DNA of 39,946 nt from Lysobacterales bacterium (GTDB taxonomy: Bacteria > Pseudomonadota > Gammaproteobacteria > Xanthomonadales > SZUA-36), in the NCBI GenBank assembly GCA_013042915.1, contig JABDPF010000086.1, positions 1 through 39,946 of the forward strand, written 5' to 3'. Position 1 is the stretch's first letter. Each line of letters opens with the position of its first letter. This document shows, in pieces, positions 1,395 through 29,466 of this stretch. The position numbers and the translations under genes were made by a program. A model generated the notes under the pieces. That model ran no database searches. It worked only from the letters and a program-made list of their open reading frames with translations, and was not told where the DNA came from.

Positions 1395-2012
1395 TCAACG
1401 CAGCTGAAGCAATATCTCGTTGCGGCGCAGGAACCACGGAACGAACGGCGCGTTGTATCGGGCCCAGACCGGGTCGCCCACCGTTTCCAGACCCTCGCGT
1501 TCGACCCATCCGCGCAGTTTCGCCAGGTGATCCAGGTACCGCTCTTCAGTCCAGCGCCCCGAGTAGCGAATCGCCACCGCGCGGTGGGCGGAAACCTGCC
1601 GCAGCATGATCTCGGGGTCGTCGGGTTGCGGCACGGTCTCCATGGTAAGCGAGGATGGCATCATGAAACTCACGGCCCAGCCACCCGGCGCTTTCGCCTG
1701 GCTGACCGGCGCGGTCATATCGATCTTCTGCGAACTCTTCTGCTGCGAGACCGGTGCCGTCATCGCGATTTCCCGGCGGGCCGTGTTGTCGCCGTCGATG
1801 TAACGGAACAAAGCTCGGAACGCACGGTTGCTCGCCTCCTCGAAATCGCCCTCGACAACGGTTTCGGCGACGATGAACGGCGCATACTCGCGTATCTCGA
1901 CCTTGCCGTCCTCACGCAGTACGCGATACTCCGCCTCCTCGACGGCGCAAACCGGGGTTGCCATCGCGCCGAGCAGCACGGCGGCCAGGGTATGGATCAG
2001 GAGCCGGGCCAT
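1395..2012 (-). CDS. SOUL family haem-binding protein, exported
   Basis: A 205-residue protein with a signal peptide (MARLLIHTLAAVLLGAM, likely cut after PVCA) and then a SOUL/HEBP domain over the rest. Family hallmarks are visible: the EYRVLREDGKVEIREY opening, two MTAPVSQ repeats, and the late PVWARYNAPFVPWFLRRNE block. SOUL proteins bind haem or other tetrapyrroles; the bacterial role is not settled. The ATG at 2012 follows the upstream stop by four bases and has GAGG about 13 bases before it, so I prefer it over an ATG at 2036 that would overlap the previous gene. It is the last gene of the operon. Its pairing with a B12-type photoreceptor regulator suggests a job in tetrapyrrole or photo-oxidative stress handling; that is inference. 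Confidence 0.85.
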   Translation of the reverse strand: MARLLIHTLAAVLLGAMATPVCAVEEAEYRVLREDGKVEIREYAPFIVAETVVEGDFEEASNRAFRALFRYIDGDNTARREIAMTAPVSQQKSSQKIDMTAPVSQAKAPGGWAVSFMMPSSLTMETVPQPDDPEIMLRQVSAHRAVAIRYSGRWTEERYLDHLAKLRGWVEREGLETVGDPVWARYNAPFVPWFLRRNEILLQLR

Positions 2013-2016
2013 CTGC

Positions 2017-2523
2017 TCAGTAATTCCTCGAATCATAGGCCCAGTGTAACAAGGCCTGTCGCTGACGCGGGCGGCACATCAGGTCGCCCTTCACGCAATT
2101 CTTGCGAACCTGCCCGATGTGCCGGGTCATGGCTTTCCAACGTCCGATCTGCCGGCCGTCGTCCTCGCAACGACGCCCCATCCAATAACGGCAATACCAC
2201 TGGAACCATCCGCGCGGATCGTTATCCCATATCCAGCCCTTTTCGCGCCAGTACGAAAGCGGCTTGGAAGCGCTCACACCGAAGAAATTAAGATCCGGAT
2301 CGCTCTTTGCAGGAGAAAGCTTGGCTTCTTTGAACCAATCTGCCGGAAATTCGTCCTGGCAGTCGGTCATGTACTTGCCGCCAAACACCCCCATGCGCAG
2401 CAGATCGGCAGGGCTGAGTTCCGGCTTGAAATCCGGATCAAAGTGTTCACCCGGCGGTTCGGTCCGCTCATAGCGATAACCCGATTGCATCTGGTCGTTG
2501 ACTGTAATGGTTACCGGTTTCAT
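2017..2523 (-). CDS. Conserved hypothetical protein, Trp/Tyr-rich, cytoplasmic
   Basis: A 168-residue soluble protein with no signal peptide and no membrane helix. I do not recognise a named domain. It is rich in aromatic residues, with motifs that look conserved: GVFGGKYMTDC near residue 47, EFPADWF near 58, and WIWDNDPRGWFQWYCRYWMGRR near 97-118 (shown as separate W/Y clusters). It has five cysteines. The C-terminal half is basic. It lies 22 bases after the CFA synthase and four bases before the SOUL gene, so it is certainly co-transcribed. I recall similar uncharacterised proteins in many bacteria and some eukaryotes, but without a function. A role in the same lipid or redox pathway is a context guess only. 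Confidence 0.75.
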   Translation of the reverse strand: MKPVTITVNDQMQSGYRYERTEPPGEHFDPDFKPELSPADLLRMGVFGGKYMTDCQDEFPADWFKEAKLSPAKSDPDLNFFGVSASKPLSYWREKGWIWDNDPRGWFQWYCRYWMGRRCEDDGRQIGRWKAMTRHIGQVRKNCVKGDLMCRPRQRQALLHWAYDSRNY

Positions 2524-2545
2524 GCGCTGTCTTCTCTCTTGGTTT

Positions 2546-3802
2546 TCAAATCACACTCAAGCGGCTTTCTGGCTTGGTGAACAGGATTTGCACATCGGAA
2601 ATCGCGCGCTCGAGAAAGGCCCCCTCGCAATAGCAAAGGTAGAACTCCCACATGCGGATGAATCGCTCGGGGTAGGCCATGGCCCGAACTTCGTCGAGCC
2701 GCTTGTTGAAATTCTCGCGCCATATCTCAAGGGTGCGCGCGTAATGCAGGCCGATGTCTTCCAGGCCCAGCAGGCGAAGGTCGGTCTTTCGCGCCACCGA
2801 ATCGGCGATGACCCGAATAGACGGCAGATTGCCGCCGGGAAAAATGTAGCGCCGAATGAAATCGACTGATTTACGGTACTCATCGTAGCGCTGATCGGCG
2901 ATGGTGATGGCCTGCAGCAACATCGCGCCATGCGGTTTCAGCAGCCGGCTGCACTTATGAAAGTACGTGTCGATGAGATGGTGGTCGATGGCTTCGATCA
3001 TCTCGATCGAGACCATCTTGTCAAACTGTCCCTCGAGATCCCGGAAATCACTCTTCAGCAGGGTCACCCGGTCTTGCAGGCCGCGCTGATCGATGCGCCG
3101 GCGAGCCCGCGCATGTTGCTCTGCCGATATCGTGGTGGTGGTCACGCGACAGCCAAAATTCTCGGCAGCGTGAATGGCCAGGCCGCCCCAGCCCGTGCCG
3201 ATCTCGAGCAGGTGCTCGTCCGGCTGCAGTTGCAGTTTCCGGCATGTGTGATCGAGGCGATGCAGCTGTGCCTCGTGCAGGCCGGCTTCGCGGTGCGGAA
3301 AGATGGCGCACGAGTACATCATGGTCTCGTCCAGCCACAGGGCAAAAAAATCGTTGCCGAGGTCGTAGTGGGCCGAGATGTTGCGCCGGGAGCCTTCCCG
3401 TGTGTTTCGGTTGATACGGTGAAACAACGTTTGCAGCGGCGCGGTGATGCGCGCAAGGCCATCCTCCATGCCATCGAGTACGTCGCGGTTCTGCAGCAAC
3501 AGCCGCACCACGGCTACCAGGTCGTCGCAGGTCCAGTAACCGTGCATCCAGGCCTCACCACCGCCGATGGAACCTCCGAAGGCAATTTCACTGTAGAAAG
3601 CCGGGTCCAGCACCTCGATGCGCGCAGACAACCCCTCGCCCGATCCGAATTCGAACGTGTCCGGGCCGTCGACCAGGACCAGGCTTCCGCGATCCATTTG
3701 CCCCAGGCGCTTGAGTACCGCGGAGCGCGCCAGGCCGTCGAGCAGGCCGGGTTTGGAGGTGCCCGACAGGTGCTTGCGGGATGAGAGTGAGCTGACCTTC
3801 AT
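2546..3802 (-). CDS. cfa: Cyclopropane-fatty-acyl-phospholipid synthase
   Basis: A 418-residue enzyme that moves a methylene group from S-adenosylmethionine onto the double bond of unsaturated acyl chains in membrane phospholipid. An N-terminal lipid-binding domain fills about residues 1-135. The catalytic domain then shows NISAHYDLGNDFF (141-153), MMYSCAIF (161-168) and the SAM loop LLEIGTGWGG (198-207). Most family members have Cys where this protein has Thr (EIGCGWGG), a mild change. Length fits the family. The ATG at 3802 overlaps the DUF1365 stop as ATGA and has AGGGA upstream, so translation is coupled; a longer frame upstream is not supported. Instead of a plain cyclopropane ring, this enzyme could methylate or act with the FAD oxidoreductase on another modified acyl chain. 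Confidence 0.92.
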   Translation of the reverse strand: MKVSSLSSRKHLSGTSKPGLLDGLARSAVLKRLGQMDRGSLVLVDGPDTFEFGSGEGLSARIEVLDPAFYSEIAFGGSIGGGEAWMHGYWTCDDLVAVVRLLLQNRDVLDGMEDGLARITAPLQTLFHRINRNTREGSRRNISAHYDLGNDFFALWLDETMMYSCAIFPHREAGLHEAQLHRLDHTCRKLQLQPDEHLLEIGTGWGGLAIHAAENFGCRVTTTTISAEQHARARRRIDQRGLQDRVTLLKSDFRDLEGQFDKMVSIEMIEAIDHHLIDTYFHKCSRLLKPHGAMLLQAITIADQRYDEYRKSVDFIRRYIFPGGNLPSIRVIADSVARKTDLRLLGLEDIGLHYARTLEIWRENFNKRLDEVRAMAYPERFIRMWEFYLCYCEGAFLERAISDVQILFTKPESRLSVI

Positions 3803-4596
3803 GAAGACTTCCCTGTTGCATCGAGGCCCTTGTCGGGATGGTCGTGCACGGGCACACCCTTGAGCCAAAGCTTCAGTGCCTCCCAGTGAATCGCGAACAC
3901 CACTTTGAGCGTCATCAGAGGGAACGAGATCAGCACACGGGCCAGGGACGCCGCTTTGATTTCACGGCGATCGAGCACCAGCGTGGCATCGAATAACTTG
4001 TGACCCTCCCGCGCGTTGGCCATGTGCACTGTCAGCCTTTGAGCAGGCGGGCCAAACCGCCAGTCGTAGTCCACGTCCATTTCCATGAACGGTGAGACGT
4101 GCATGACTTTTTCTGGGAAAAAGCGGGCATGGTCGCCCTGCCCATGATTATCAGCCTGCGGCAAAACGTAGCAGTGCTGTTCACCCCAAGGCGTGTTGTT
4201 CACTTCCGCCACGATCGTCTCCACGCGTTCGTCGTCCTCGTCAAAACAATAGTAAAAACTGACCGGGTTGAAAACATGGCCGAAATAACGCAAATGGGTA
4301 AGCAGACGAATCGGCCCTTTCGGCGCCACGCCGTTTCGCTCCTCCACCAACTGCCGCACGGCCTGGTCTAGAGGGATGTCGGCGGGGCCGACGTGGTCCT
4401 CGCGGCGGAATCGTGCGATCGCCGCCCCGCGGGCCGACCACAGCCATCGGCCGTCGAACAGGCCCGGCAGTTCGGCCAGGTCGAGGTACATCATGAACAT
4501 GCGGTAACGGAACTCGTGGACCTTGGGCCGCATGCGGCGGTGCCTAACCCACCCGGCGTAGATGCCGCTGTTTACCGTTTCCGATTCCGGGTTCAT
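3799..4596 (-). CDS. DUF1365 family protein
   Basis: A 265-residue protein of the DUF1365 (COG3496) family. The family hallmarks are the opening YAGWVRHRRMRPKVHEFRYRMFM, where the His-Arg and FRYR elements are typical, then LRYFGHVFNPVSFYYCFD near residue 106-123 and NNTPWGEQHCYVL near 136. These genes nearly always travel with a COG2907-type FAD oxidoreductase and a CFA-like methyltransferase, as here. The function is unknown but is inferred to be in fatty-acid modification. The gene begins 53 bases before its upstream neighbour ends and has GGAG eight bases before the ATG. Its own stop overlaps the start of the CFA synthase. Confidence 0.92.
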   Translation of the reverse strand: MNPESETVNSGIYAGWVRHRRMRPKVHEFRYRMFMMYLDLAELPGLFDGRWLWSARGAAIARFRREDHVGPADIPLDQAVRQLVEERNGVAPKGPIRLLTHLRYFGHVFNPVSFYYCFDEDDERVETIVAEVNNTPWGEQHCYVLPQADNHGQGDHARFFPEKVMHVSPFMEMDVDYDWRFGPPAQRLTVHMANAREGHKLFDATLVLDRREIKAASLARVLISFPLMTLKVVFAIHWEALKLWLKGVPVHDHPDKGLDATGKSS

Positions 4597-5848
4597 CCAC
4601 GTGCTCCTCGAAGTGCTTCAGCGCATCGATCGCGCTGACCACGCCGTCCTCATGAAAACCATAACGCCAGTACGCTCCGCAATAATACGTAAGTCGGGCT
4701 CCGTTGATTTCGCGGCGTCGCTGTTGAGCGGCAACCGCACGTTCGGTAAAGATCGGGTGGTCGTAGCTGATCTTACGGATGACCTTGTCCGGGTCGATCG
4801 CATCAGTATTGTTCAGCGTCACGCAATACTCACGGGTCGCAGACAGGCTTTGCAGAATGTTCATATTGTAGGTCAGTGTGACTTTGCCGTCTCTCGTGCC
4901 GGGGTGTTTCGGAATAGTGTAATTCCAGGCGGCCCAGGCGCGCCGGCGTTTCGGCATCAACAACGTATCGGTATGCAATACGGCTTCATTGGTCTGGTAT
5001 TCGATTGCCCCAAGCACCTCGCGCTCTTGCGGTGTCGGATCGGCGAGCATGGCGAGCGCCTGGTCACTGTGACAGGCCAGGAATACCCGGTCGAAGCGCT
5101 CCGCCTCGTTACCCGCCGAGCGGATTTCGACGTGTCCGGGAAAGCGGCGAATGGCCGTCACCGGTGTGCCGGTGCGGATACGATCGCGGTGGCCGGCGAC
5201 GAGCTTTTCCACGTAGCGAGCCGAGCCGCCCTTGATGACGCGCCATTGCGGACGGTCATGGACGCTGAGCAAGCCGTGATTCTGGAAGAAGCGCACGAAA
5301 AATACCGCCGGCATCGCGCGCATGCGATCAGCGGTGGCCGACCAGATAGCCGAACCCATCGGCAAAATGTAGTTTTCGACGAATTGTTCGCAGTAATTGT
5401 TCAGGGCGAGGTACTCACCCAGGGTCAGCCTGAGCTCCGGCTGCGTGAGCAGAGCCGGCGCCTCCCGGTTGAAGCGGAGGATATCGGCCAACATTCGATA
5501 GAACGCCGGGCGGACCAGATTACGGCGCTGGGCGAACAGGCGGTTCAGCGACGAACCATTGTATTCCAGACCATGCCGTCCGCCGGTCACGCTGAAACTC
5601 ATGTCACTGGGCTGGCTGGCCACGCCCAACTCGTCCAGCAGTGCGATAAAGTTCGGGTAGGTGACGTCGTTGTATACGATGAAGCCGGTGTCCACCGCCA
5701 GCACGCGCCCCGCGTCCTCTACCTCCAGCGTATTGGTGTGGCCACCAACGCGAGCGCTGGCTTCGAACACGGTGATGTCGTGGTGTTGCGCCAGGCGGTA
5801 AGCAGCGTAGTTACCGGCAATCCCCGTGCCGATAATCGCGATGTTCAT
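4544..5848 (-). CDS. NAD(P)/FAD-dependent oxidoreductase, amine-oxidase fold (COG2907)
   Basis: A 434-residue flavoprotein. It opens with the dinucleotide-binding loop IGTGIAGNYAAYRL (residues 6-19) and the following VGGHTNT element of the amine oxidase/phytoene desaturase superfamily. Length and content match the COG2907 'predicted NAD/FAD-binding protein' family. Members sit beside DUF1365 and CFA-like genes and are thought to oxidise or desaturate acyl chains; in Rhodobacter furan-fatty-acid synthesis a desaturase, a CFA-like methyltransferase and a third protein (UfaD, UfaM, UfaO) act in sequence. Whether this protein plays such a part is inference. The ATG lies four bases after the lipocalin stop, with no good ribosome site, so it likely depends on coupled translation. 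The 3' end overlaps DUF1365 by 53 bases. Confidence 0.9.
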   Translation of the reverse strand: MNIAIIGTGIAGNYAAYRLAQHHDITVFEASARVGGHTNTLEVEDAGRVLAVDTGFIVYNDVTYPNFIALLDELGVASQPSDMSFSVTGGRHGLEYNGSSLNRLFAQRRNLVRPAFYRMLADILRFNREAPALLTQPELRLTLGEYLALNNYCEQFVENYILPMGSAIWSATADRMRAMPAVFFVRFFQNHGLLSVHDRPQWRVIKGGSARYVEKLVAGHRDRIRTGTPVTAIRRFPGHVEIRSAGNEAERFDRVFLACHSDQALAMLADPTPQEREVLGAIEYQTNEAVLHTDTLLMPKRRRAWAAWNYTIPKHPGTRDGKVTLTYNMNILQSLSATREYCVTLNNTDAIDPDKVIRKISYDHPIFTERAVAAQQRRREINGARLTYYCGAYWRYGFHEDGVVSAIDALKHFEEHVDEPGIGNGKQRHLRRVG

Positions 5849-5852
5849 GGAT

Positions 5853-6377
5853 TTACCATTGTTGCGGGACGCGCTGCAGGTTCTCGATGTCGTAGCCGAC
5901 GCCCTGAATGAAGTCCACCGCCTTCTGGTACTCGGCGGCAGGCATTTGGGGTTCCCTGGCCATTAACCAAACGTAGTCCCGCTTGTTGCGCCCGATAATC
6001 GTGGTCGAGTAATCCTCGTTCAGGTAGATAATCCTGTAGTCCCCTTTGAAGGGCCAGACGAACTGCATTCCCCAGAGCGCGTTGCTTTGTTCGTCCTCCA
6101 CGAAACCACGGGGCCTGTATTCCTTCTTCTGACCATCGAAGCCGCCCTTACGGAACGTGAAGGTGGTCGCAATCGTACCGTCTTCATCCAGTCGGTAAGT
6201 CTCGATCGCGTTGTGGGCGCCCTTCTCGATGAAGGTCGGGATGTTGGCAATCACGTACCAGTCACCCATGAAGCGTTCGAGGTCGACGTATTCGACCGTC
6301 TCCATCGGCGGTTGCGAGGCGCAGCCGCCCAATGCCAGGGCGCAGGATGCAGTGAGCAGTCGATTTCGAAGGGTCAT
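5853..6377 (-). CDS. blc: Lipocalin (Blc-like) outer-membrane lipoprotein
   Basis: A 174-residue lipocalin. The N-terminus MTLRNRLLTASCALALGGC ends in a lipobox with the lipidated Cys at residue 19. The family's first conserved block follows as RFMGDWYVIANIP (the G-x-W motif). The later parts, YRIIYLNEDYSTTIIGR and RDYVWLMAREP, are typical of Blc/ApoD-type bacterial lipocalins. These bind fatty acids or lysophospholipids and help membrane repair under stress. The ATG used here is preceded by GAGAGA; a longer frame starting 42 bases upstream would overlap the previous gene and bury the signal peptide. Context suggests it handles the modified or released fatty acids of this operon. Confidence 0.9.
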   Translation of the reverse strand: MTLRNRLLTASCALALGGCASQPPMETVEYVDLERFMGDWYVIANIPTFIEKGAHNAIETYRLDEDGTIATTFTFRKGGFDGQKKEYRPRGFVEDEQSNALWGMQFVWPFKGDYRIIYLNEDYSTTIIGRNKRDYVWLMAREPQMPAAEYQKAVDFIQGVGYDIENLQRVPQQW

Positions 6378-6387
6378 CGGGATTCTC

Positions 6388-7080
6388 TCAAATGGATTCG
6401 TAACGAAGGGTGCGGCCACTTTCCAGCGTGCTTTCGAGGGCCAGCCATTCGTTTTGGTCCGAATACCAGAGGTCGAGGCGCAAGTCGCCCGCTTCCAAGT
6501 GGTACCGGTAAGAGGGCATCATTTCGCCGCGTACCTCAAGGCGTTCTTGCACTGGCGACGAGACTTCAACGTCTAGGTAGCGCCCGTCCTGCGTGTTGAG
6601 CAGGCGAGCTTCCTCCAGGAACGCGGGATTCCAGTAAGCGAAGCTCATCACGCACGGCGGCAGCGCGGCATCGCCTTCGCTGGCCACCACCTGGAAACCG
6701 CCATCGAATCGCAGCCCGTGAACCGTGTAATTGTCGCCATTCGAGTCGGTACGTGAACGTACGCTCTGCAGGCAATCACCTGACCAGTTTTCCAGGTTCT
6801 CATGCTCGTATCGAAACAATGTGACGAAGAGCAGGCGGTATTCGAAATTGGCGACGCTTTTCAGCTGCCTATTCTGCCCGTCCTCGGCCAGGTAAAAATG
6901 GTGATAACCGATTTCCTTGTCGTCGAGAAACACGCGAAAACGCCACGAGTTTGAGGCATTCTGCAGCGCGGCGAAATCGTCCTGCTCGGTGCTGGCCTCG
7001 GCCTCTGGCGAAACAAACAGCACGGCCAGCAGGGCAAGGGCCGCGAAAAGCGCGTAGATATCCTTGATCCTGTTTTGCAT
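6388..7080 (-). CDS. Exported protein, DUF6134-like
   Basis: A 230-residue secreted protein. It starts with a signal peptide (basic MQNRIKD, then a hydrophobic stretch to about residue 24, likely cut near EAEA). The mature part opens WRFRVFLDDKEIGYHHFYL and is built of short beta-strand-like stretches, as in the DUF6134 family, which I match from memory with moderate confidence. No catalytic motif is visible. Three cysteines in the mature part could be structural. The start is set by a perfect GGAGG eight bases before the ATG, formed by the last codons and stop of the DUF1295 gene. It may bind a lipid or other small ligand in the periplasm; that is inference from its neighbours. Confidence 0.7.
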   Translation of the reverse strand: MQNRIKDIYALFAALALLAVLFVSPEAEASTEQDDFAALQNASNSWRFRVFLDDKEIGYHHFYLAEDGQNRQLKSVANFEYRLLFVTLFRYEHENLENWSGDCLQSVRSRTDSNGDNYTVHGLRFDGGFQVVASEGDAALPPCVMSFAYWNPAFLEEARLLNTQDGRYLDVEVSSPVQERLEVRGEMMPSYRYHLEAGDLRLDLWYSDQNEWLALESTLESGRTLRYESI

Positions 7081-7084
7081 GTCA

Positions 7085-7888
7085 TTAACCTCCGTTTTCC
7101 ACGCTGGCCGCTGCACGGGGCTTTGGCGGCGCGGGGATGAATGCGCTGGTGCGCTCGATGTAGTCCCGGTAGGCCGGGCGCCGGTCGGCAATGTCTTTTT
7201 CAAGCAGCGCCACCCCGGACACACGCACCAGCAATAGGGTCATCAGTAACGGCGAGACCACGGCCCACCAGGCCCCGGCGGCCAGTGCGAAGAGATAAAT
7301 CCCCCACCATAGCAGGGCCTCGCCAAAATAGTTGGGGTGGCGGGTATACCGCCATAGTCCCGAGTCGAGCACCGCGTTTTCAGCGCGCTTTTCCTTTTGA
7401 AAGCGCATCAGCTGCCAATCCCCGACAACTTCGAAGATCATGCCTGCCGTCCATACCAGCAGCGCAGCCAGGTCCAGCCAGCCGAGCGGCGCGGGCGATG
7501 CAGTCGCCGCAACGGCGGGCAACGATATGATCCATGCCAGGAATGCCTGCAGGCCAAACACGATATACAGGCTTTTCCACCAGAATCCGGGTTGATTGTT
7601 GCTGCGAATCTGCTGATAGCGGCGATCTTCACCTTCGCCGTGATTTCGTATGGCGATGTGGATCGACAGGCGCAACGCCCAGAGCGTCACCAGGGCCAGC
7701 AACAACGTGGCGCGTGCTCCGTTAATACCGGTAAACACCAGGTAGGCGCTCAGGCTGGCGAGGATCATCAGGGACCACAGGATGTCGACGACGCTGACGT
7801 CTCGCTTCACAACGCTGTAGCCCCACGCCACCATCGAGATCAGCGCGACAATGCCGAGGGCCGTCATGTATGAGCTCCAATCAACCAT
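7085..7888 (-). CDS. DUF1295 family membrane protein (steroid-reductase fold)
   Basis: A 267-residue inner-membrane protein with about six to seven helices. The C-terminal half has the family signature GLWRYTRHPNYFGEALLWWG near residue 179-198, shared by isoprenylcysteine methyltransferases and steroid 5-alpha reductases (COG3752, DUF1295). Upstream of it the DVSVVDILWS segment near residue 30 is also typical. The reaction is unknown; relatives bind NADPH or SAM and act on lipids inside the membrane. The ATG at 7888 overlaps the DUF2878 stop by eight bases. A second in-frame ATG at 7867 has a better GGAG site seven bases before it and could be the true start, losing seven residues. The end of the gene supplies the ribosome site of the next gene. 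Confidence 0.9.
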   Translation of the reverse strand: MVDWSSYMTALGIVALISMVAWGYSVVKRDVSVVDILWSLMILASLSAYLVFTGINGARATLLLALVTLWALRLSIHIAIRNHGEGEDRRYQQIRSNNQPGFWWKSLYIVFGLQAFLAWIISLPAVAATASPAPLGWLDLAALLVWTAGMIFEVVGDWQLMRFQKEKRAENAVLDSGLWRYTRHPNYFGEALLWWGIYLFALAAGAWWAVVSPLLMTLLLVRVSGVALLEKDIADRRPAYRDYIERTSAFIPAPPKPRAAASVENGG

Positions 7889-8450
7889 GGGTATCTGCGC
7901 GCCCCCATTCTTTCTGGATGTAGTCGGGCCGCTGGACTTGCTGGAAACCGTCGAGCCGTGAGGCCAGCCAGACCAGGAACGGCATAACCAATCCCCAGCC
8001 GACCGCCAGCGCGATCATCGCTGCAACGGGCTCGGTAAACGTCATGGCACCCAGGCGTCCACCGGCCAGGTAGCTCAGCGGGCCGCCAATGGCACCGAAT
8101 GCCGCAGCCAACCAGTAGCGACCCTTGAGCCAGCGCATGGACACATTGAGCGTGCAGGTGAACAGCACCCACAGTGACGCGATCCAGTACGGTGCGATAC
8201 CCGGCACCCACAGGCCGTTGGGGTAGGCGATCCAGCCCGTCGACAGCAACAGGGAGTCGGCCGCCAGCCCGAGGCCGAGCGCGGTCAGTACCAGGCGCAA
8301 CTCGACAGCGGGCCGCTGGGCAAACCTCAAGTGAAGGGTCAGGGCCGCCAGCGCGACGGCCGGCCCGAGCAACGGCATGCCGTTGGCGGCGCCCAGCACG
8401 GTAGTGAACCACCCGGCCTGGAATACGAGGATGTTGGCGAATACGTTCAT
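7881..8450 (-). CDS. DUF2878 family membrane protein
   Basis: A 189-residue protein with about six membrane helices and short loops. It opens MNVFANILVFQAGWFTTVLG and has the internal WIAYPNGLWVPGIAPYWI and GGPLSYLAGGRLGAM stretches that mark DUF2878. Function is unknown. Genes of this family recur in clusters that hold a CFA-like methyltransferase, DUF1295, a lipocalin and a LitR or sigma-E/ChrR-type regulator, which is the context here. The start lies three bases beyond the previous gene's stop codon, with a GGGGG-rich site 12 bases before the ATG. A longer upstream frame runs antisense-like inside the previous gene and is not supported. Confidence 0.85.
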   Translation of the reverse strand: MNVFANILVFQAGWFTTVLGAANGMPLLGPAVALAALTLHLRFAQRPAVELRLVLTALGLGLAADSLLLSTGWIAYPNGLWVPGIAPYWIASLWVLFTCTLNVSMRWLKGRYWLAAAFGAIGGPLSYLAGGRLGAMTFTEPVAAMIALAVGWGLVMPFLVWLASRLDGFQQVQRPDYIQKEWGRADTHG

Positions 8451-8452
8451 TG

Positions 8453-9532
8453 TTATTTTGCCCCCTGAGGTGCGTCTTCGGTCCGGCGGAACACGTAATG
8501 GCTCACGAACCATTCGCGGCCTGAATGCAGGCCAAAAAGCTCTGCGCAGGCCATAAAGAAAATCCGCCAGCGCTGTAACCACTGGGCGGCACGGTCGCGC
8601 CCGTAGGTCGCTTCCATGATCGGCATGATTTCGTCCCGACGCTCATCCATATTGGCTAGCCAGGCGTTGGAGGTACGCTCGTAATGAGCGCCGTTCCAGC
8701 GGAAGCGGCTTGCAAGTTGCAAGCGGCCCTGAAAGTGCAATGGCAGATCGTCGCTGGGCATGATGCCGCCGGAGAAGAAATGTCGGCTCATCCAATCGCT
8801 GTCGCCTTGGTCGAGGAACTCGTAGGGGGTGCTTCGATGGCAGAATATGTGCATAAAAAACTGCCCGCCCGGCTTCAGCCACGAATGGATCCGTGCAAAT
8901 AGCTGGCGGTAGTTCCGCATATGCTCGAACATTTCGACCGAGACGACCCGGTCGTATTGGTCCGAAGCATTGAATTCATTCATGTCGGCCGTGATCACCG
9001 AAAGGTTGTCCAACCCGCGACGCGCCGCCTCTGTCTCGATGAACTCGCGCTGTGGGGCTGAATTGGAGACGGACGTCACGTGGCAGGCGGGGTAAGTGCG
9101 CGCAATCCACAAGCTCAACGAACCCCATCCGCAACCGAGATCAAGAACGGCCATGCCGTCCCGAATGCCGGCTCGCTCGCAGCTGATCTTCAGCGCGGCG
9201 ATTTCAGCCTGTTCGAGCGTTTCAGTGTCGTCGCCCCAAAAGCAGCAGCTGTATTTCCGATGCGGCCCGAGGGCGGCGTCAAAAAAGCTTGGCGGAATTT
9301 CATAATGCTGCTCGTTGGCCAAGTCGGGAACCAACGCGATGGGCGAAGAGTTCATCATGTCCACGAATGATCCGATTCGGAGTGCCGAAGCCTCGATATC
9401 CTCCGCTTCGACATCCTTGAGACGCTGACGGCACAGCCTGCGAATGCCGGCGCGAATCATCGCGTCCGGGACTCGGCCCTGCTCGGTCCACTCCAGGATT
9501 GCCGAAGATGGAGATCTTGCTGTGGCGTTCAT
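8453..9532 (-). CDS. CFA-synthase-like SAM methyltransferase (coclaurine N-methyltransferase-like branch)
   Basis: A 359-residue member of the CFA synthase superfamily, distinct from the full-length enzyme at the other end of the operon. It has QHYEIPPSFF (75-84), KYSCCFW (93-99) and the SAM loop VLDLGCGWGS (129-138). The N-terminal domain is short (about 70 residues against about 135 in true CFA synthases). The YSCCFW motif and late WRIFFMACAELFG with GREWFVSHYVF point to the branch that includes plant coclaurine N-methyltransferase and many bacterial enzymes of unknown substrate. It is the first gene of the operon, with CGGAG nine bases before the ATG, and is divergent from the MerR/LitR regulator. 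It probably methylates an unsaturated acyl chain or a lipid headgroup. Confidence 0.88.
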   Translation of the reverse strand: MNATARSPSSAILEWTEQGRVPDAMIRAGIRRLCRQRLKDVEAEDIEASALRIGSFVDMMNSSPIALVPDLANEQHYEIPPSFFDAALGPHRKYSCCFWGDDTETLEQAEIAALKISCERAGIRDGMAVLDLGCGWGSLSLWIARTYPACHVTSVSNSAPQREFIETEAARRGLDNLSVITADMNEFNASDQYDRVVSVEMFEHMRNYRQLFARIHSWLKPGGQFFMHIFCHRSTPYEFLDQGDSDWMSRHFFSGGIMPSDDLPLHFQGRLQLASRFRWNGAHYERTSNAWLANMDERRDEIMPIMEATYGRDRAAQWLQRWRIFFMACAELFGLHSGREWFVSHYVFRRTEDAPQGAK

Positions 9533-9786
9533 TCGTTTACTCCGCTTGTGTTTTCACGTCTGACAGGTGACGTCGTTGTTGATGACGCCATTAGACAACA
9601 GCCCGGGTCAAGATCATGTGAAGATTGAAATCAATATCGGGAGCCCCGGCCATGGTTGGCTCACGGTGCCCGTCGGAGCTCGGCCTGAGGGTTGCAGCTC
9701 GGCACTTTTCAATCACCGTGCAGTGACCTCTTCAAGCCAGGTTTTGTATAGTTTTTCCGCGGCGCGCCCGTCTGGCAGCGCCGCCT

Positions 9787-9814
9787 GTGACGTGATGTAT
9801 AGATTGGGTACAAT
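9787..9814 (+). promoter_or_regulatory. Possible promoter of the LitR-type regulator gene
   Basis: GTGACG (9787-9792) as -35, 16-base spacer, and TACAAT (9809-9814) as -10. One half-site of the 11-bp repeats overlaps the -10 and the other lies in the spacer, which would suit autorepression. The leader to the ATG would be about 87 bases. The -35 matches consensus only partly. Confidence 0.35.
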
Positions 9815-9875
9815 TAATTTCGTGAAAACTTCAATATTTACGATAAGTTTGCACGATATGTACAGTTACCGTACA
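9797..9875. promoter_or_regulatory. Two pairs of GTAYA half-sites at 11-bp spacing: candidate CarH/LitR operators
   Basis: Pair 1 is GTATA at 9797 and GTACA at 9808. Pair 2 is GTACA at 9860 and GTACA at 9871. Each pair is exactly 11 bases apart, start to start. CarH of Thermus is known to bind tandem 11-bp direct repeats next to promoters, so this layout fits a CarH/LitR operator between the regulator gene and the lipid operon. A single extra GTATA occurs at 9746. The 9533-9907 gap holds no convincing gene; a minus-strand promoter for the operon must lie here but its -10 is not clear (TAAATA at 9835-9840, 18 bases from a TGTACA at 9859-9864, is one option). Confidence 0.6.
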
Positions 9876-9907
9876 CTAATCGAGTTGAATCGCTGGCGCG
9901 ACATATC

Positions 9908-10828
9908 ATGACTGAAAGAGCACAGATAATCGAATACCCCGCTGAAAAGCTGTACACGATCGGAACCGTATCAAAACTCACGGGCGTCGGAGCCATTACC
10001 CTGCGCGCGTGGGAGCGGCGCTACGGACTGGTCAAGCCCGTTCGAAAGGAGAGCGGGCATCGTTTGTATACGCGGCAGCACATCGACCAGATCAACCGCA
10101 TCACGTCCTTGACACAGCAGGGTCTGCGCATCAGCCAGATCACGCCGGAAATGCTCGAGACTGAAATGCAGGGAAGTGCAGAGGATGAGCGCCCCAACGA
10201 CGTCTGGAAAGAGTACCTTAACGGCATGATTGCAGCGCTGGTGAGCTTTGACGAGGACCGGCTCGAAGAAATCTACAATACGGCTCTCTCTCTCTACCCC
10301 ATCGGGACCGTCACCCAAAAGCTTTTGACACCTTTGCTGATTGAACTGGGCGTTCGCTGGGAGGCCGGCGACGGGGGCGTGGCCGAAGAGCACTTCTTCT
10401 CTTTCTATTTACGTAACAAGTTGGGGGCGCGTTTCCATCATCGCCCACGGGGCAACCGCGGCTCGGTATTGTTGATCGCCGGCCTGCCGGGCGAGCACCA
10501 CGAGCTCGGCCTGCTGTTGTTTGCCCTCGCGGCCCACGAGAATGGCTATCGGGTGATTCCCCTGGGTGCGAATATGCCGCTGGCCGACCTGGAATCGGTC
10601 AGCCGACAAAAGAAACCCAGCGCTATAATTCTCGCCGGCGCCATCGAGCCATCGCGGCGGACGCTGAATGACGAGCTGCCGAAGCTGGTCAGCAAAGTGA
10701 GCGTACCGGTAACGGTCGGCGGGCTGTCCTCCGTGTACGCCTGCGACGCCATCGATAAGGCCGGCGCCGTGGCGCTGGGGCGCGACATCGACATTGGCCT
10801 GCAGCGGCTTTCCAAACTCCTGTCCTGA
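9908..10828 (+). CDS. litR: MerR-family B12-dependent photoreceptor-type regulator (LitR/CarH)
   Basis: A 306-residue transcription factor. Residues 15-85 are a MerR winged helix (IGTVSKLTGVGAITLRAWERRYG, then GHRLYTRQHID). Residues about 100-175 are the four-helix cobalamin-capping domain with W151, nine residues, then E161-H162: the W-x9-EH motif that packs over adenosylcobalamin in CarH. Residues about 185-305 are the Rossmann-type B12 domain with E196-x-H198-x-x-G201, H198 being the likely lower axial ligand, and GG at 271-272. In CarH/LitR proteins a dark tetramer represses transcription and light breaks the Co-C bond to release DNA. All known ligand residues are present, so light sensing is likely, though a light-blind B12 or B12-free form cannot be excluded. 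It is divergent from the lipid operon. Confidence 0.88.
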   Translation: MTERAQIIEYPAEKLYTIGTVSKLTGVGAITLRAWERRYGLVKPVRKESGHRLYTRQHIDQINRITSLTQQGLRISQITPEMLETEMQGSAEDERPNDVWKEYLNGMIAALVSFDEDRLEEIYNTALSLYPIGTVTQKLLTPLLIELGVRWEAGDGGVAEEHFFSFYLRNKLGARFHHRPRGNRGSVLLIAGLPGEHHELGLLLFALAAHENGYRVIPLGANMPLADLESVSRQKKPSAIILAGAIEPSRRTLNDELPKLVSKVSVPVTVGGLSSVYACDAIDKAGAVALGRDIDIGLQRLSKLLS

Positions 10829-10877: not shown

Positions 10878-11270
10878 ATGGATGAGAGAGAGAGACTCGT
10901 CCGCGCGACCGACGTGCTGACGGAGCGCGCCCTGACGGGCCTGTTTTCCCGTGCTTTTGCGCAACCGCTCAAGTTGCTGGGACAGACCGAGGCCTCGCTG
11001 TCCAGCTACGCGGTGTTCTGGTGCGTGGCCTTCAATGAAGGTAGCACTCAAGTGGAAATTGCGGGCCAGACCGGATTGTCCGCGAAAACTGTTTCGCGGG
11101 TCATCTCGCAGCTTGGCGAGGCGGCCGGCGGCCGTGGCTGGATTAAGCAATCCCATGATGCAAAGGACCGGCGGGTGCGGCGATTGACGCTCAGCCGCAA
11201 GGGGAAGTCCGTGCATCGACAACTGATGCGCGACCTCCAGCAGTTCGACTCGGAGCTGTCGCCCGGCTGA
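10878..11270 (+). CDS. MarR-like winged-helix regulator
   Basis: A 130-residue protein with a MarR-type winged helix: SYAVFWCVAFNEGSTQVEIA, then a recognition helix LSAKTVSRVISQL near residue 72-84, and a wing with KDRRVRRLTLSRKG near 96-109. The usual C-terminal dimer helix is present but short. No ligand motif is visible. It lies 49 bases after the LitR-type gene on the same strand. A TACAAT box ends seven bases before the ATG and no ribosome site is visible, so it may have its own promoter and a leaderless message. Whether it acts on the lipid operon is not known. Confidence 0.75.
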   Translation: MDERERLVRATDVLTERALTGLFSRAFAQPLKLLGQTEASLSSYAVFWCVAFNEGSTQVEIAGQTGLSAKTVSRVISQLGEAAGGRGWIKQSHDAKDRRVRRLTLSRKGKSVHRQLMRDLQQFDSELSPG

Positions 11271-18863: not shown

Positions 18864-19799
18864 ATGGAATCCAAACAGACGTCGAATAACCGCTCCTTGG
18901 CACCCGGTGCTGCCCGTGACGGGCGCGCCGGGGAGTATGCCGCAGACGACATCTCCCGCATCCGGAAAGATCCTGAGGCGATCGGCGCCCTGTTCAAGGA
19001 AGGCGTTTATCCCTACAACGAGAAGGTTCTGCGCAGCGAGTACGAAAAAGAGAAAGCCCTGCTCCAGATCGAACTGCTGAAAGTCCAGAACTGGGTGAAG
19101 ATGAGCGGACAGAAGATCGTCATCATTTTCGAGGGTCGCGACGCCGCCGGCAAAGGCGGCACCATAAAGCGCTTCATGGAGCACCTGAACCCTCGTGCGG
19201 CCAAGGTGGTCGCGTTGGAGAAGCCCACCGACCACGAGCGGGGTCAGTGGTACTTCCAGCGCTACGCGGTGCATTTACCGACCCAAGGCGAAATCCTGTT
19301 TCTCGACCGCTCCTGGTACAACCGGGCGGGCGTGGAACGGGTGATGGGGTTCTGTGACTCGGCCGAGTACCTGGAGTTCATGCGCCAATGCCCGGAGTTC
19401 GAGCGGATGCTGGTGAATTCGGGTATCCAATTGTTCAAATACTACTTTTCGGTGACCCAGGCCGAGCAGAAGCGGCGCTTCGCGGCGCGCATGCAAGACC
19501 CGCTCAAGCAATGGAAGCTGAGCCCGGTCGACAAGGCGTCCGTCGGGCTGTGGAATGAATACACCCGGGCGAAGGAAGCAATGTTTTTCTACACCGACAC
19601 GGCGTCCTGCCCCTGGACGATCATCAAGTCCGACGACAAGAAGCGCGCGCGCCTCAACTGCATGCAGCACTTCCTGAGCAAGCTGGACTATCCGGACAAA
19701 GACCTGGACGCGGTGGGCGGCCCGGACCCGCTGATTGTCGGCTCGCCGTCGCAGGTCATCCGCAAGGACGTTCATCTCGATGCCTGGCCGCACGAATAA
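18864..19799 (+). CDS. ppk2: Polyphosphate kinase 2 (class I)
   Basis: A 311-residue PPK2, which moves phosphate between polyphosphate and nucleoside diphosphates, mainly making NTP from NDP and polyP. The Walker A loop is GRDAAGKGG (91-99). The Walker B/lid region FLDRSWYNRAGVERVMGF (146-163) is followed by the lid residues around KRRFAARMQDPLKQWKLSP. The family tail SDDKKRARLNCMQHFL is present. A single PPK2 domain of this length is typical of class I, and one Asp/Asn-rich feature is not enough to prove NDP over NMP preference. The first 30 residues look disordered. Strong ribosome site GGAAAGG. It stands alone between MarR and the ior operon. Confidence 0.94.
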   Translation: MESKQTSNNRSLAPGAARDGRAGEYAADDISRIRKDPEAIGALFKEGVYPYNEKVLRSEYEKEKALLQIELLKVQNWVKMSGQKIVIIFEGRDAAGKGGTIKRFMEHLNPRAAKVVALEKPTDHERGQWYFQRYAVHLPTQGEILFLDRSWYNRAGVERVMGFCDSAEYLEFMRQCPEFERMLVNSGIQLFKYYFSVTQAEQKRRFAARMQDPLKQWKLSPVDKASVGLWNEYTRAKEAMFFYTDTASCPWTIIKSDDKKRARLNCMQHFLSKLDYPDKDLDAVGGPDPLIVGSPSQVIRKDVHLDAWPHE

Positions 19800-19908
19800 C
19801 GCCAACCCTGCTTGAATTTCAGCCGAAAACGGCCAACTCCCGAAAACAGGCTTTCCAAGCCGGGTTGACTCTCGTCAGCGCCGAATTCGGGCCAATGGCC
19901 TAGACTTT

Positions 19909-19925
19909 ACTTGTTGCCGGCAAGT
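19909..19925. promoter_or_regulatory. Palindromic site before iorA
   Basis: ACTTG (19909-19913) and CAAGT (19921-19925) are inverted repeats seven bases apart. Overlapping them is a perfect 10-base palindrome, TTGCCGGCAA (19914-19923). It lies about 50 bases before the iorA start, where an operator is expected. No clear -10/-35 pair could be set; TTGACT at 19865-19870 is a possible -35. Confidence 0.35.
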
Positions 19926-19975
19926 ATTCAGACCTGCTTCGTCGTGAGCGATCCTTGCCGGCGGACGAGGCACAC

Positions 19976-21559
19976 ATGAACAAAGAGATTCTTCTCGGCG
20001 ACGAGGCCGTCGGCCTTGGCGCGATTCACGCCGGCCTGAGCGGGGTTTACGGCTATCCCGGCACCCCTTCAACCGAAATATTCGAATTCATTGAGCAACG
20101 CACCCGCAAGGGCGGCAACGTCCATGCCTTCTGGTCGACCAATGAAAAAGTCGCCTATGAAGAAGCCCTGGGCATGAGTTGGGCGGGTAAACGTTCCCTG
20201 GTTTGCATGAAGCACGTTGGCCTGAACGTCGCCGCCGATGCGTTCATGAATTCCGCGATCACCGGCACCAATGGCGGCCTGGTGCTCGCCGTGGCGGACG
20301 ATCCGGGCATGCACTCGTCACAGAACGAGCAGGACAGTCGGTACTTTGCGGAATTCGCACTGATTCCTTGCCTCGAACCGGGTGACCAGCAGGAATGCTA
20401 TGACATGATTTTCGACGCCTTCGAGCTCTCAGAGGCATTGCGTGTTCCGGTGATGGTGCGCCTGGTAACCCGCATCGCCCACAGCCGAACGGCGGTCGAT
20501 ACGCGCGAGCCCCGTGAACAGAACGAACTCAAACCCGACAAGCAAATCCGCAAGTGGACCCTGATCCCGGTCAACGCCCGTGTGCAGTACGCCGGCCTGA
20601 CCGAAAAGCAGCCCGAACTCGTGCAACGCGCGGAGGAAAGCCCCGCCAATGCGCTCGATTTGCGCGGCGGTACCGGTGTGATCGCCTGCGGGCTCGCTGG
20701 CAACTACCTGTTCGAGAACCTGGAACCCGACCACGATTACTCGGTGCTGACGATCCGCCAATACCCGATTCCCCCGGAAAAGGTTCGCGCGCTCCTGGAT
20801 CGCGTCGATGACCTGCTGATCCTGGAGGATGGCTATCCGCTGGTGGAGAACAGGGTGCGCGGACTGTTTGGCCTGGAGGGCGTCCACATCCGGGGCCGCA
20901 TGACCGGTGAGGTGCCGCGTACGGGTGAACTCAACCCGGACATCGTGCGCAAGGCGCTGCGCCTGGAACCACTGCCCACTGCCTGCGACGCTGCCGGCGA
21001 TTTGTCGAACCGCCCGCCGGCGCTGTGCAAGGGCTGCCCGCACACCGACAGCTTCAGGGCCCTGAACGACGCGCTGGAGGGTTTTGACGATCCACAGGTG
21101 TTCTCCGACATCGGCTGCTACGCGCTGGCCGCCCTGCCCCCCCTCGAAGCCGTGCACAGCTGCGTGGCGATGGGCGCCTCGATCGGCATGGCCGCCGGCG
21201 CAGCCCACGCCGGCTACTCGCCGGCCGTGGCCGCCATCGGCGACAGCACGTTTTCACACGGCGGCATCACCCCGCTGATGTCGGCGGTACAGCAAGGCGT
21301 CAACCTCAACGTGCTGGTCGTCGACAACAGCACGGTAGGAATGACCGGCACCCAGCGCTCGATGTCGACCGGCACGACCCTGGACAAGATCATCCTTGGA
21401 ACCGGTGTCTCCGAGGATCACTTCCGGGTCATCGAGCCGATTCCCCGCAACCACGAGCAGAACGTGGCCGTACTGCAAGAGGAGTTGGCCTTCGACGGCC
21501 CGAGCGTCGTGGTTGCCCGCCGGCCGTGTATCGAGGCCCAGAAAAAACGCGCACATTGA
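19976..21559 (+). CDS. iorA: Indolepyruvate:acceptor oxidoreductase, large (TPP) subunit without ferredoxin domain
   Basis: A 527-residue alpha subunit of a 2-oxoacid oxidoreductase. The N-terminal pyrimidine-binding domain starts MNKEILLGDEAVGLGAIHAG and has GYPGTPSTEI near residue 26. The C-terminal TPP domain has LCKGCPH (Cys351, Cys354) and GDSTFSHGG at 422 followed by VVDNSTVGMTG, the family's thiamine site. It would convert indolepyruvate or another arylpyruvate plus CoA to the acyl-CoA, CO2 and reduced carrier. Archaeal IorA is about 100 residues longer and ends in two 4Fe-4S ferredoxin clusters; here the protein stops at EAQKKRAH with no such cysteines, so the electron route must differ. 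GAGG lies before the ATG. First gene of iorA-iorB-acd. Confidence 0.88.
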   Translation: MNKEILLGDEAVGLGAIHAGLSGVYGYPGTPSTEIFEFIEQRTRKGGNVHAFWSTNEKVAYEEALGMSWAGKRSLVCMKHVGLNVAADAFMNSAITGTNGGLVLAVADDPGMHSSQNEQDSRYFAEFALIPCLEPGDQQECYDMIFDAFELSEALRVPVMVRLVTRIAHSRTAVDTREPREQNELKPDKQIRKWTLIPVNARVQYAGLTEKQPELVQRAEESPANALDLRGGTGVIACGLAGNYLFENLEPDHDYSVLTIRQYPIPPEKVRALLDRVDDLLILEDGYPLVENRVRGLFGLEGVHIRGRMTGEVPRTGELNPDIVRKALRLEPLPTACDAAGDLSNRPPALCKGCPHTDSFRALNDALEGFDDPQVFSDIGCYALAALPPLEAVHSCVAMGASIGMAAGAAHAGYSPAVAAIGDSTFSHGGITPLMSAVQQGVNLNVLVVDNSTVGMTGTQRSMSTGTTLDKIILGTGVSEDHFRVIEPIPRNHEQNVAVLQEELAFDGPSVVVARRPCIEAQKKRAH

Positions 21560-21569
21560 GGACGGATGG

Positions 21570-22337
21570 ATGGAGAAAAACATCATTCTTGCGGGCGTCG
21601 GCGGCCAGGGCATCCTGTCGATCGCCTTCGTCATCGACCACGCTGCGATGGACGCCGGTTATCACTTCAAGCAAGCGGAAGTCCACGGTATGGCCCAGCG
21701 CGGGGGCGCTGTCCAGTCCAACCTGCGGTACGCAGACCGGGAAATTTTCTCTGACCTCATCCCGGCAGGTAAAGCCGACCTGGTGCTTTCGGTCGAACCG
21801 CTAGAGGCCCTGCGCTACCGGCAGTACCTGCGGCCGGGCGGCTGGGTGGTGACCAGCACGACACCCTTCGTAAACATTCCGGACTATCCGGAATCGGATA
21901 CGCTTCTCGGCAAGCTGGCAGCCCTCGAGCACGTCATCATGGTGGACACGGCCCACCTGGCCCGTGCGGCGGGTAACCGGCGCGCGCAGAACATGGTGGC
22001 TGTCGGAGCCGCCTCACCCATGCTCGATTTCGAAGAAACCCGCTTACTGGCCTTCGTCGAGCGGCTGTTTGCCCGCAAGGGAGAGAAACTCGTTGCCGTC
22101 AACCAGCGGGCGTTTCGCCTGGGGCGCGCTGCGGGCTTGTTTTTCCGGCACTCGGTCGCGGCTGGCCTGGCGAAACTGGATTCGCTTCGACTGCTCAGGA
22201 AGTTAGACCCGGACAGCATCGATCCCGCGCAGGCCGAGGCCTGGGCCGCGGCCATCGAGGACGATGCCGCGCTGCTCGACAGGGTGCTCGGCAGCGAGGG
22301 AACGGTGGCTTGCGACGACGTACCGCTGGTCGCCTGA
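21570..22337 (+). CDS. iorB: Indolepyruvate:acceptor oxidoreductase, gamma-type subunit
   Basis: A 255-residue IorB. It has the family loop ILAGVGGQG (residues 6-14) and HGMAQRGGAV near 44-53, both typical of the POR gamma domain that contacts CoA. Usual IorB proteins are near 200 residues; this one has a C-terminal extension of about 55 residues, rich in Ala, Asp and Leu, with no cysteines to replace the missing ferredoxin domain. TGAGG lies just before the ATG, ten bases after the iorA stop. It is co-transcribed with iorA and with the acyl-CoA synthetase gene, whose ATG follows one base after this stop. Confidence 0.88.
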   Translation: MEKNIILAGVGGQGILSIAFVIDHAAMDAGYHFKQAEVHGMAQRGGAVQSNLRYADREIFSDLIPAGKADLVLSVEPLEALRYRQYLRPGGWVVTSTTPFVNIPDYPESDTLLGKLAALEHVIMVDTAHLARAAGNRRAQNMVAVGAASPMLDFEETRLLAFVERLFARKGEKLVAVNQRAFRLGRAAGLFFRHSVAAGLAKLDSLRLLRKLDPDSIDPAQAEAWAAAIEDDAALLDRVLGSEGTVACDDVPLVA

Positions 22338-22338
22338 C

Positions 22339-24720: not shown

Positions 24721-24727
24721 CGCTTCG

Positions 24728-24813
24728 AACCCGGCCACGGAGTCGCACCCCTGCTCTCAGGGGATGGGCCCGAGCGTCCCCTGGAAAGGGGTATACCGCC
24801 CCGCGGCCGGGTT
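24728..24813 (+). other. Three-way-junction-like RNA element between acd and DUF456
   Basis: AACCCGGCC (24728-24736) is perfectly complementary to GGCCGGGTT (24805-24813). The closed loop holds two more hairpins: CCCCT/AGGGG (24748-24763) and CCCC/GGGG (24778-24791). TTG follows the closing helix directly, with a GGTTTTGAAAACC repeat overlapping its 3' end. It begins eight bases after the acd stop. It may be a complex terminator or RNA-stabilising 3' end of the ior operon, or a leader element of DUF456, which starts 109 bases later. Confidence 0.5.
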
Positions 24814-24922
24814 TTGAAAACCACTATCGAATCCCGGGATGGAATGACCCCTCATTGAACGGCGACCGTGCTTTTTGCGTTATCCTTCAGGCTCCTGATC
24901 GATAAATCGAAGATGCGCTGAA

Positions 24923-27131: not shown

Positions 27132-27150
27132 GGATTACCCTTCTCGGTTT

Positions 27151-28422: not shown

Positions 28423-28438
28423 GCCTTGGTCCCGTTGT

Positions 28439-29422: not shown

Positions 29423-29466
29423 GTTTTATCTGGCGTTTGATTGTCCTGGAGTCAGTGTTCCCGGAT

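Follow-up and report, generated by a model that had tools for sequence, protein, structure and literature searches.

A predicted class I LitR/CarH-type regulator faces a probable furan fatty acid operon in a Lysobacterales bacterium

Class I CarH/LitR proteins, among them CarH of Thermus thermophilus (TtCarH), Bacillus CarH and CtMerR, carry an adenosylcobalamin (AdoCbl, AdoB12) light signature consisting of GxxW, EH, GxxH and GxxxP (PMC11796333), and CarH operators are tandem 11-bp direct repeats of the form nnnnTnnACAn (PMC9304148). Furan fatty acid synthesis has been described in R. sphaeroides and R. palustris, where UfaM is an S-adenosylmethionine (SAM)-dependent fatty acyl methylase, UfaD a flavin adenine dinucleotide (FAD) desaturase and UfaO a DUF1365 protein, while FufM yields the dimethyl furan (Lemke et al., PMC7380195). 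Here, we analyze a 39,946-nt stretch of DNA from a Lysobacterales bacterium (JABDPF010000086.1, hereafter the window; contig 31 of a 2.69-Mb, 96%-complete assembly), in which a LitR gene stands divergent from a run of ten genes that contains the same enzyme types by domain. The window regulator shares domain order, light signature and 11-bp operator-type repeats with the class I proteins; however, TtCarH adjoins genes for a photolyase and a phytoene/squalene synthase, whereas the window regulator faces a lipid operon and is without the residue His132 of TtCarH. The locus also differs from the furan pathway of R. sphaeroides and R. palustris in that the adjacent regulator is a B12-type LitR and not ChrR. 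The features of the locus are as follows.

9908..10828, plus strand: predicted class I LitR/CarH regulator, 306 residues, with MerR helix-turn-helix (HTH), four-helix B12-binding_2 and B12-binding domains (Pfam, phmmer, alignment)
9533..9907, no strand: shared divergent promoter region, 375 bp
9837..9880, plus strand: predicted operator B, LitR-proximal, four 11-bp repeats in register (TTTACG, TTTGCA, TGTACA, CGTACA)
9796..9817, plus strand: predicted operator A, operon-proximal, two 11-bp repeats (TGTATA, GGTACA)
8453..9532, minus strand: CMAS1, SAM-dependent methyltransferase of the coclaurine N-methyltransferase type, candidate FufM (PDB sequence matches)
7881..8450, minus strand: DUF2878 protein (Pfam E 5.5e-42; start picked by eye)
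7085..7888, minus strand: DUF1295 protein (Pfam E 3.6e-67), with weak Steroid_dh, ICMT and PEMT matches too
6388..7080, minus strand: DUF6134 protein (Pfam E 3.1e-44; start by eye)
5853..6377, minus strand: Blc-type lipocalin (Pfam), lipoprotein signal by eye
4544..5848, minus strand: FAD amine-oxidase-like oxidoreductase, predicted UfaD-like desaturase (Pfam; similarity to triplet FAD proteins)
3799..4596, minus strand: DUF1365 protein, predicted UfaO-like furan-forming oxygenase (Pfam E 1.3e-86, 290.6 bits)
2546..3802, minus strand: CMAS2, fatty acyl methylase resembling cyclopropane fatty acid (CFA) synthases, predicted UfaM-like (Pfam; alignment; PDB matches)
2017..2523, minus strand: conserved 168-residue protein without Pfam or NCBIfam family (profile scans)
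1395..2036, minus strand: SOUL heme-binding protein, at the end of the packed run (Pfam E 1.7e-46)

We favor a model, to which we assign a probability of roughly 0.66, in which AdoB12-bound LitR would repress both sides of the gap in the dark, light would release it, and the operon would make furan lipids that quench singlet oxygen. Gene content, conserved synteny, the B12 signature and the operator-type repeats are read directly from the DNA, and from these we infer repression, its dependence on light and B12, the enzyme activities and the products. The ten minus-strand genes (9532 down to 1395) and the divergent plus-strand regulator (9908-10828) lie where an initial annotation of the DNA had placed them. 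In transcription order, the genes are CMAS1, DUF2878, DUF1295, DUF6134, lipocalin, FAD oxidoreductase, DUF1365, CMAS2, the 168-residue protein and SOUL, and the Pfam families over the run are CMAS (two genes), DUF2878, DUF1295, DUF6134, Lipocalin_2, Amino_oxidase/NAD_binding_8, DUF1365 and SOUL. Because the junctions between them measure only -53 to +22 bp (computed with the CMAS2 start at 3808, while the conserved N-terminus starts at the ATG at 3802), the genes likely form a single operon, and the earlier description of an unbroken minus-strand operon of ten genes is borne out.

The same annotation had called this a lipid-modification operon, a description that is upheld and that can be sharpened to what is most likely furan fatty acid synthesis, rather than generic cyclopropanation, by enzymes of the UfaM, UfaD and UfaO types and a FufM-like enzyme. 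The genes for the FAD protein, the DUF1365 protein and CMAS2 are consecutive, and CMAS2, the FAD protein and the DUF1365 protein are most likely of the UfaM, UfaD and UfaO types, respectively. UfaO is matched through the DUF1365 family at the Pfam score listed above, while the UfaD and UfaM types were tentatively assigned by domain, adjacency and similarity to homologous FAD-DUF1365-CMAS triplets. Identity to the triplet counterparts in Pseudoalteromonas and Salinivibrio, respectively, is 47% and 54% for the FAD protein, 33% and 38% for the DUF1365 protein, and 44% and 47% for CMAS2. Alternatively, the operon, although under light control by LitR, might make cyclopropane or branched (methylated) acyl chains, the FAD and DUF1365 proteins having a different lipid as their substrate. 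Both CMAS proteins belong to PF02353, and CMAS2 shares 39% identity with E. coli Cfa and has CFA synthases as its top PDB matches, as this alternative would have it. However, CMAS2 is closer to the two triplet methylases than to Cfa, the tested furan-forming UfaO is a DUF1365 protein (PMC7380195), and the triplet is found in the same order in all eight relative loci that reach far enough (L001, L003, L035, L036, L038, L042, L129 and L130), with DUF1365 split in L001; we therefore consider such an outcome unlikely.

CMAS1 is a distinct methylase with 27% identity to CMAS2. Its best PDB match is coclaurine N-methyltransferase (E 2.9e-74 over residues 11-350), as compared with E 5.5e-33 for the best CFA synthase, and it is 48% identical to a Shinella protein that adjoins DUF1295 near DUF1365 and ChrR. 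Arabidopsis LIME1 is a member of the coclaurine-type methyltransferase family. FufM is 38% identical to LIME1 (PMC10940516) and 26% identical to UfaM (PMC7380195). Given the coclaurine-type match and the resemblance of FufM to LIME1, CMAS1 is likely, not proven, to be FufM, and we place the chance that it carries out the second methylation slightly above even. In R. palustris, the UfaD, UfaO and UfaM homologs are adjacent too (RPA2571-2569) while fufM lies elsewhere (RPA0924) (PMC7380195), whereas the window has all four types in one run together with six further genes.

The best reading of the regulator is a predicted class I, AdoB12-dependent LitR/CarH-type repressor. Pfam identifies the MerR HTH, B12-binding_2 and B12-binding domains of this class, the last with 25.5 bits over residues 189-274, below the Pfam cut-off of 32.1. 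The protein matches Thermus CarH with a phmmer E of 6e-31 (31% identity over 273 positions), and its W151, E161, H162 and H198 align with TtCarH W131, E141, H142 and H177. The light signature is complete, with GxxW at 148-151, EH at 161-162, GxxH at 195-198 and GxxxP at 220-224, and is kept whole in 15 of 16 aligned sequences (the window, 14 from 12 family genomes and one from Caballeronia; TtCarH and the Salinivibrio MerR are omitted, and L003/L037, on the same contig, are entered once), L041b having D for the first G of GxxH. Among 40 further gammaproteobacterial homologs, 29 retain the whole signature, five differ at the first G of GxxH only and six are without several residues. These six (L181, L182, L184, L189, L190 and L191), some of which lie in similar neighborhoods, suggest repeated loss of B12 sensing, alignment errors being possible. 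The genome encodes a PduO-type cobalamin adenosyltransferase; a CobA-type enzyme was looked for in the genome and not found. Class II LitR retains just one B12-binding domain of the two, the four-helix B12-binding_2 domain, and acts together with a LOV protein (PMC9758184), whereas the window regulator retains both B12 domains and their residues.

The gap between LitR and the operon holds two predicted operators of tandem 11-bp TnnACA-type repeats. The four repeats of operator B match 3, 3, 4 and 3 of the four TnnACA positions, so that one repeat is strict and the rest, including those of operator A, are near-matches. Equivalent repeats are present in relatives. Six close relatives have a weaker third repeat in operator A, reading TGCAA in four of them, TACAA in one and TTCAA in one; it is degenerate in the window. 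Counting TGTAYA-like pairs 11 bp apart on both strands at a threshold of at least 10/12, the window gap contains six; dinucleotide shuffles average 0.08, and none of 1000 reaches six. The motif was picked after viewing these sequences and published LitR sites. The window and six close loci together have 32 such pairs versus 0.83 expected, and eight more distant upstream regions 25 versus 1.27; these pooled counts use related sequences and overstate independence, from which the single-window test is free. At 11/12, the close loci have 17 pairs at spacing 11 and five at spacing 9. Of the upstream regions of the 40 class-wide homologs, 14 have an 11-bp pair at 11/12 or better, and over all 40 regions spacing 11 gives 23 such pairs, compared with 9 for the next best spacing. 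Class II LitR sites share the TGTACA half-sites of the window but are arranged as TGTACA-N12-TGTACA, an 18-bp register (PMC9758184). Such N12-spaced sites were considered and set aside in favor of the 11-bp spacing: the best in the gap has four mismatches over the two hexamers, and the sole two-mismatch match nearby starts inside the regulator gene. In the close and distant sets, spacing 18 yields 10 and 14 pairs versus 32 and 25 at spacing 11 with the looser threshold, and 0 and 1 versus 17 and 12 with the stricter one. Genome-wide, exact pairs number four versus zero for the reversed pattern in the window's genome and 65 versus 19 in 11 family genomes, palindromic ones being counted twice.

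Family relatives retain the operon together with LitR, with protein identities of about 47-79%. Among 39 family genomes, LitR is found in 18, DUF1365 in 24 and both in 16, with LitR alone in two and DUF1365 alone in eight; DUF1365 thus occurs in 16/18 genomes with LitR versus 8/21 without it (Fisher p 0.0024, relatedness ignored), and the two are on the same contig in 12 of the 16 genomes, in one case via a LitR fragment. A class-wide draw of 369 genomes yields 41 with the regulator at E 1e-40 or better, the window's genome among them. At 40 further LitR places (of 42 listed besides the window; G526 and a G316 fragment were omitted, and two places are in one genome, G206), a photolyase-like gene is present at 20, DUF1365 at 14, all three ufa-type genes at 12 and CMAS1 at eight; 31 places have DUF1365 or photolyase and three have both. 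These stretches extend up to ~20 kb, less at contig ends, and the counts are without a matched random-place control. The surroundings of LitR vary among relatives. G137 and G082 have photolyase and the photolyase-related protein DPRP next to the cluster; in G042, its neighbors are folE/folX, glutathione peroxidase and SOUL genes. In L041 (G042) and L132 (G117), LitR leads a set of LitR, the 168-residue protein and lipocalin that diverges from a DUF4397 gene, with fasciclin next in G117; G042 has an operon-linked LitR as well, 6 kb away. In four relatives of divergent layout, a DUF4397-type gene (assigned by Pfam in one of the four) comes first in the operon, inside the gap; the window and L001 are without it. 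In L001, which together with L002 apparently corresponds to G153 and G152, respectively, DUF1365 is split over two frames (5231-5967), as in G153, by a sequencing error or in a broken gene.

In the mechanism that we propose, an AdoB12-bound oligomer would sit on the 11-bp repeats in the dark and silence its own gene and the operon; in light, the Co-C bond would be broken and the oligomer would dissociate or lose its affinity for DNA, allowing operon expression. Phospholipid-bound cis-vaccenate would then be converted to furan fatty acids, with the UfaM-like CMAS2 methylating, the UfaD-like FAD protein desaturating and the UfaO-like DUF1365 protein inserting oxygen from O2, while the FufM-like CMAS1 would probably add a second methyl group. 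The lipocalin, SOUL, DUF1295, DUF2878 and DUF6134 proteins may be accessory, perhaps in lipid or tetrapyrrole handling, and the furan products would scavenge singlet oxygen in the membrane.

Several observations weigh against this model, and the operon-side promoter is its weakest link. A promoter scan found no operon-strand sigma-70 site in the gap and listed two plus-strand sites. In six close relatives, TTGNAN-N17-TACAYT overlies operator A on the operon strand, but these hexamers are partly the repeats themselves and so are no proof of a promoter, and the window equivalent, CGAAAT-N17-TACATC, is degenerate. Given the missing site and the degenerate hexamers, operon-side control may be weakened in the window, or the promoter may lie elsewhere. 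At 10/12, spacing 9 is nearly as frequent in the close loci as spacing 11 (29 versus 32), and one-mismatch pairs in the window's genome (20 versus 15) show no clear enrichment. None of the stretches examined at the LitR loci of G127, G117 and G056 contains a ufa gene. Finally, the initial annotation held that every known cobalamin residue is kept, which is true of W151, E161, H162 and H198 but not of the position of TtCarH His132, occupied by Glu152. His132, which lies outside the published light signature, is the light-state ligand of TtCarH in its bis-His state (PMC10442372), and it is found in none of the 16 aligned sequences and in 0/40 of the further homologs.

The replacement by Glu152 leaves room for a regulator that binds B12 but answers B12 status or redox, or one whose light switching was lost without His132. 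In one study, the H132A variant of TtCarH was mostly tetrameric in light, while an earlier report cited there saw disassembly (PMC10442372). CtMerR, however, has Arg at this position together with the full signature, and it is photoactive and changes from tetramer to monomer in light (PMC11796333), so that loss of His132 does not exclude light sensing. Moreover, the photolyase-like genes at 20 of the 40 homologous LitR places and beside the cluster in two family relatives point to light, and we regard a regulator blind to light as quite improbable. Without the His132 ligand, the light state in our model is probably water- or hydroxo-ligated and not bis-histidine. Main induction of the ufa operon by singlet oxygen via a sigma-E/ChrR-type factor, with LitR in a minor role, is very improbable. 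In its favor, Pseudoalteromonas and Shinella have related sets next to sigma/ChrR genes, furan lipids increase in R. sphaeroides when chrR is mutated (PMC7380195), and a protein with two ChrR-type cupins (234 residues; L067:5122-5826, contig 69) is encoded in the window's genome. However, this protein has cupin-type matches only and is on another contig, and LitR repeats sit in the operon's own promoter gap.

LitR may act beyond the operon. The earlier proposal that the system is dedicated to membrane remodeling is not supported: CarH-type repeat pairs also occur at a small number of other genes in the genome, two of which look related to oxidative stress, and in two relatives photolyase and the photolyase-related protein stand next to the same cluster. 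Of the four exact sites in the window's genome, two are in the LitR gap, one is inside another gene, and one lies between genes for a UbiG-like methyltransferase and a DUF3429 protein (L064:5568-5584, contig 5), within the longest DUF3429 reading frame and just ahead of its likely ATG; a UbiG-like gene has the repeat pair in G049 too. Two of the 15 one-mismatch regions outside the gap look meaningful, one before a glutathione peroxidase gene followed by short-chain dehydrogenase/reductase (SDR)-like and lipocalin-like genes (L112:2998-3014) and one ahead of a fasciclin protein (L115:3000-3016). In relatives, 9/17 repeat regions outside the LitR gap have a photo-stress-like neighbor and 8/17 have none. 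These neighbors are folX/folE (four genomes), fasciclin (two), a UbiG-like gene, glutathione peroxidase and a photolyase/DPRP pair. The 17 are a selection from the regions of seven relatives; some neighbors were named by eye, while Pfam was used to check 10 proteins and similarity to check others.

The statement that the window has no photolyase or carotenoid gene holds for the 14 window open reading frames scanned with Pfam, the rest of the 39,946 bases being unannotated. Other contigs encode one photolyase-domain protein and one SQS_PSY protein. The photolyase-type protein has no repeat pair at 11/12 or better in positions 19000-29892 of its contig. A carotenoid link was considered and dropped, there being no such pair around the SQS_PSY protein, the one carotenoid-type family searched. 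Two tblastn queries of the phytoene/squalene synthase type found nothing in 40 class-wide and 16 family/window stretches, a weak negative as the queries miss each other. L067:6835-9195 (contig 69) encodes a 786-residue fusion of a weakly scoring photolyase domain and an FAD amine-oxidase-like domain, with no LitR-type pair nearby.

One further feature lies directly downstream of LitR.

10878..11270, plus strand: small MarR-like regulator, kept in L035 and L036 (profile scan, relatives)

This gene is perhaps co-transcribed with LitR. A major facilitator superfamily-like gene at 3-1316, named by eye, was considered as an eleventh operon gene and rejected, as it is separated by a 78-bp gap and unmatched in 14 relative loci. 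The 168-residue protein is 70-79% identical in six relative loci, and in a seventh a stretch of 40 residues is 52% identical; a PDB sequence search gave a best E of only 0.98, and an AlphaFold model from three sequences had a mean predicted local distance difference test (pLDDT) score of 45.6. Its gene adjoins LitR in G042 and G117, and its family, with 50 plasmid records overall, reaches ~60-67% identity in rhizobial plasmids. In R. etli and Mesorhizobium the gene comes after TspO with a fasciclin gene nearby, which is not so in Phaeobacter, and the Mesorhizobium neighborhood contains sigma and anti-sigma factor genes as well.

Related gene sets, which the initial annotation had noted with LitR or sigma-E/ChrR in other bacteria, were indeed seen beside a ChrR or MerR protein in Pseudoalteromonas, Salinivibrio and Shinella. 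The Pseudoalteromonas (RpoE-ChrR) and Salinivibrio (MerR) clusters contain the same FAD oxidoreductase-DUF1365-CMAS-DUF2878 block as the window; these gammaproteobacterial photo-oxidative clusters have SDR, NTF2-like, DUF3833 and photolyase genes besides, and the Salinivibrio MerR, unlike the window regulator, is without the B12 residues. In Shinella, DUF1295, a CMAS1-like gene and DUF1365 lie behind sigma/ChrR genes. In the class II LitR/LOV regulon of Pseudomonas, UfaM, FAD oxidoreductase, photolyase and folX/folE/folM are among the genes that light induces or lie in regions that it induces, the last three in a light-responsive LitR region of Pseudomonas mendocina (PMC9758184). Similarly, folX/folE-type genes have repeats in four of the relatives analyzed here, two of them identified by eye. 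In V. cholerae, a CFA synthase gene is induced by blue light (PMC5241685).

Furan genes under class II LitR or sigma-E/ChrR are already known; of their pairing with a class I LitR we found no description in a library of open-license papers, which lacks most subscription journals. We tentatively suggest, at somewhat less than even odds, that in Gammaproteobacteria B12-LitR is chiefly a furan-lipid/photolyase switch and not a carotenoid switch, that it operates without a bis-His state, and that exchange of sensors is the rule, the furan module being found beside at least three sensor kinds (B12-LitR, LOV/class II LitR and sigma-E/ChrR). With His132 absent from all aligned gammaproteobacterial homologs, one can ask directly whether B12 light sensing generally involves a bis-His state or whether this state is a Thermus specialty. 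Furan fatty acids would provide a testable physiological output for a B12 photoreceptor outside carotenoid control. Finally, the four proposed furan enzyme types and six further genes would form a single, probably light-switchable unit, which could be transferred into a host.

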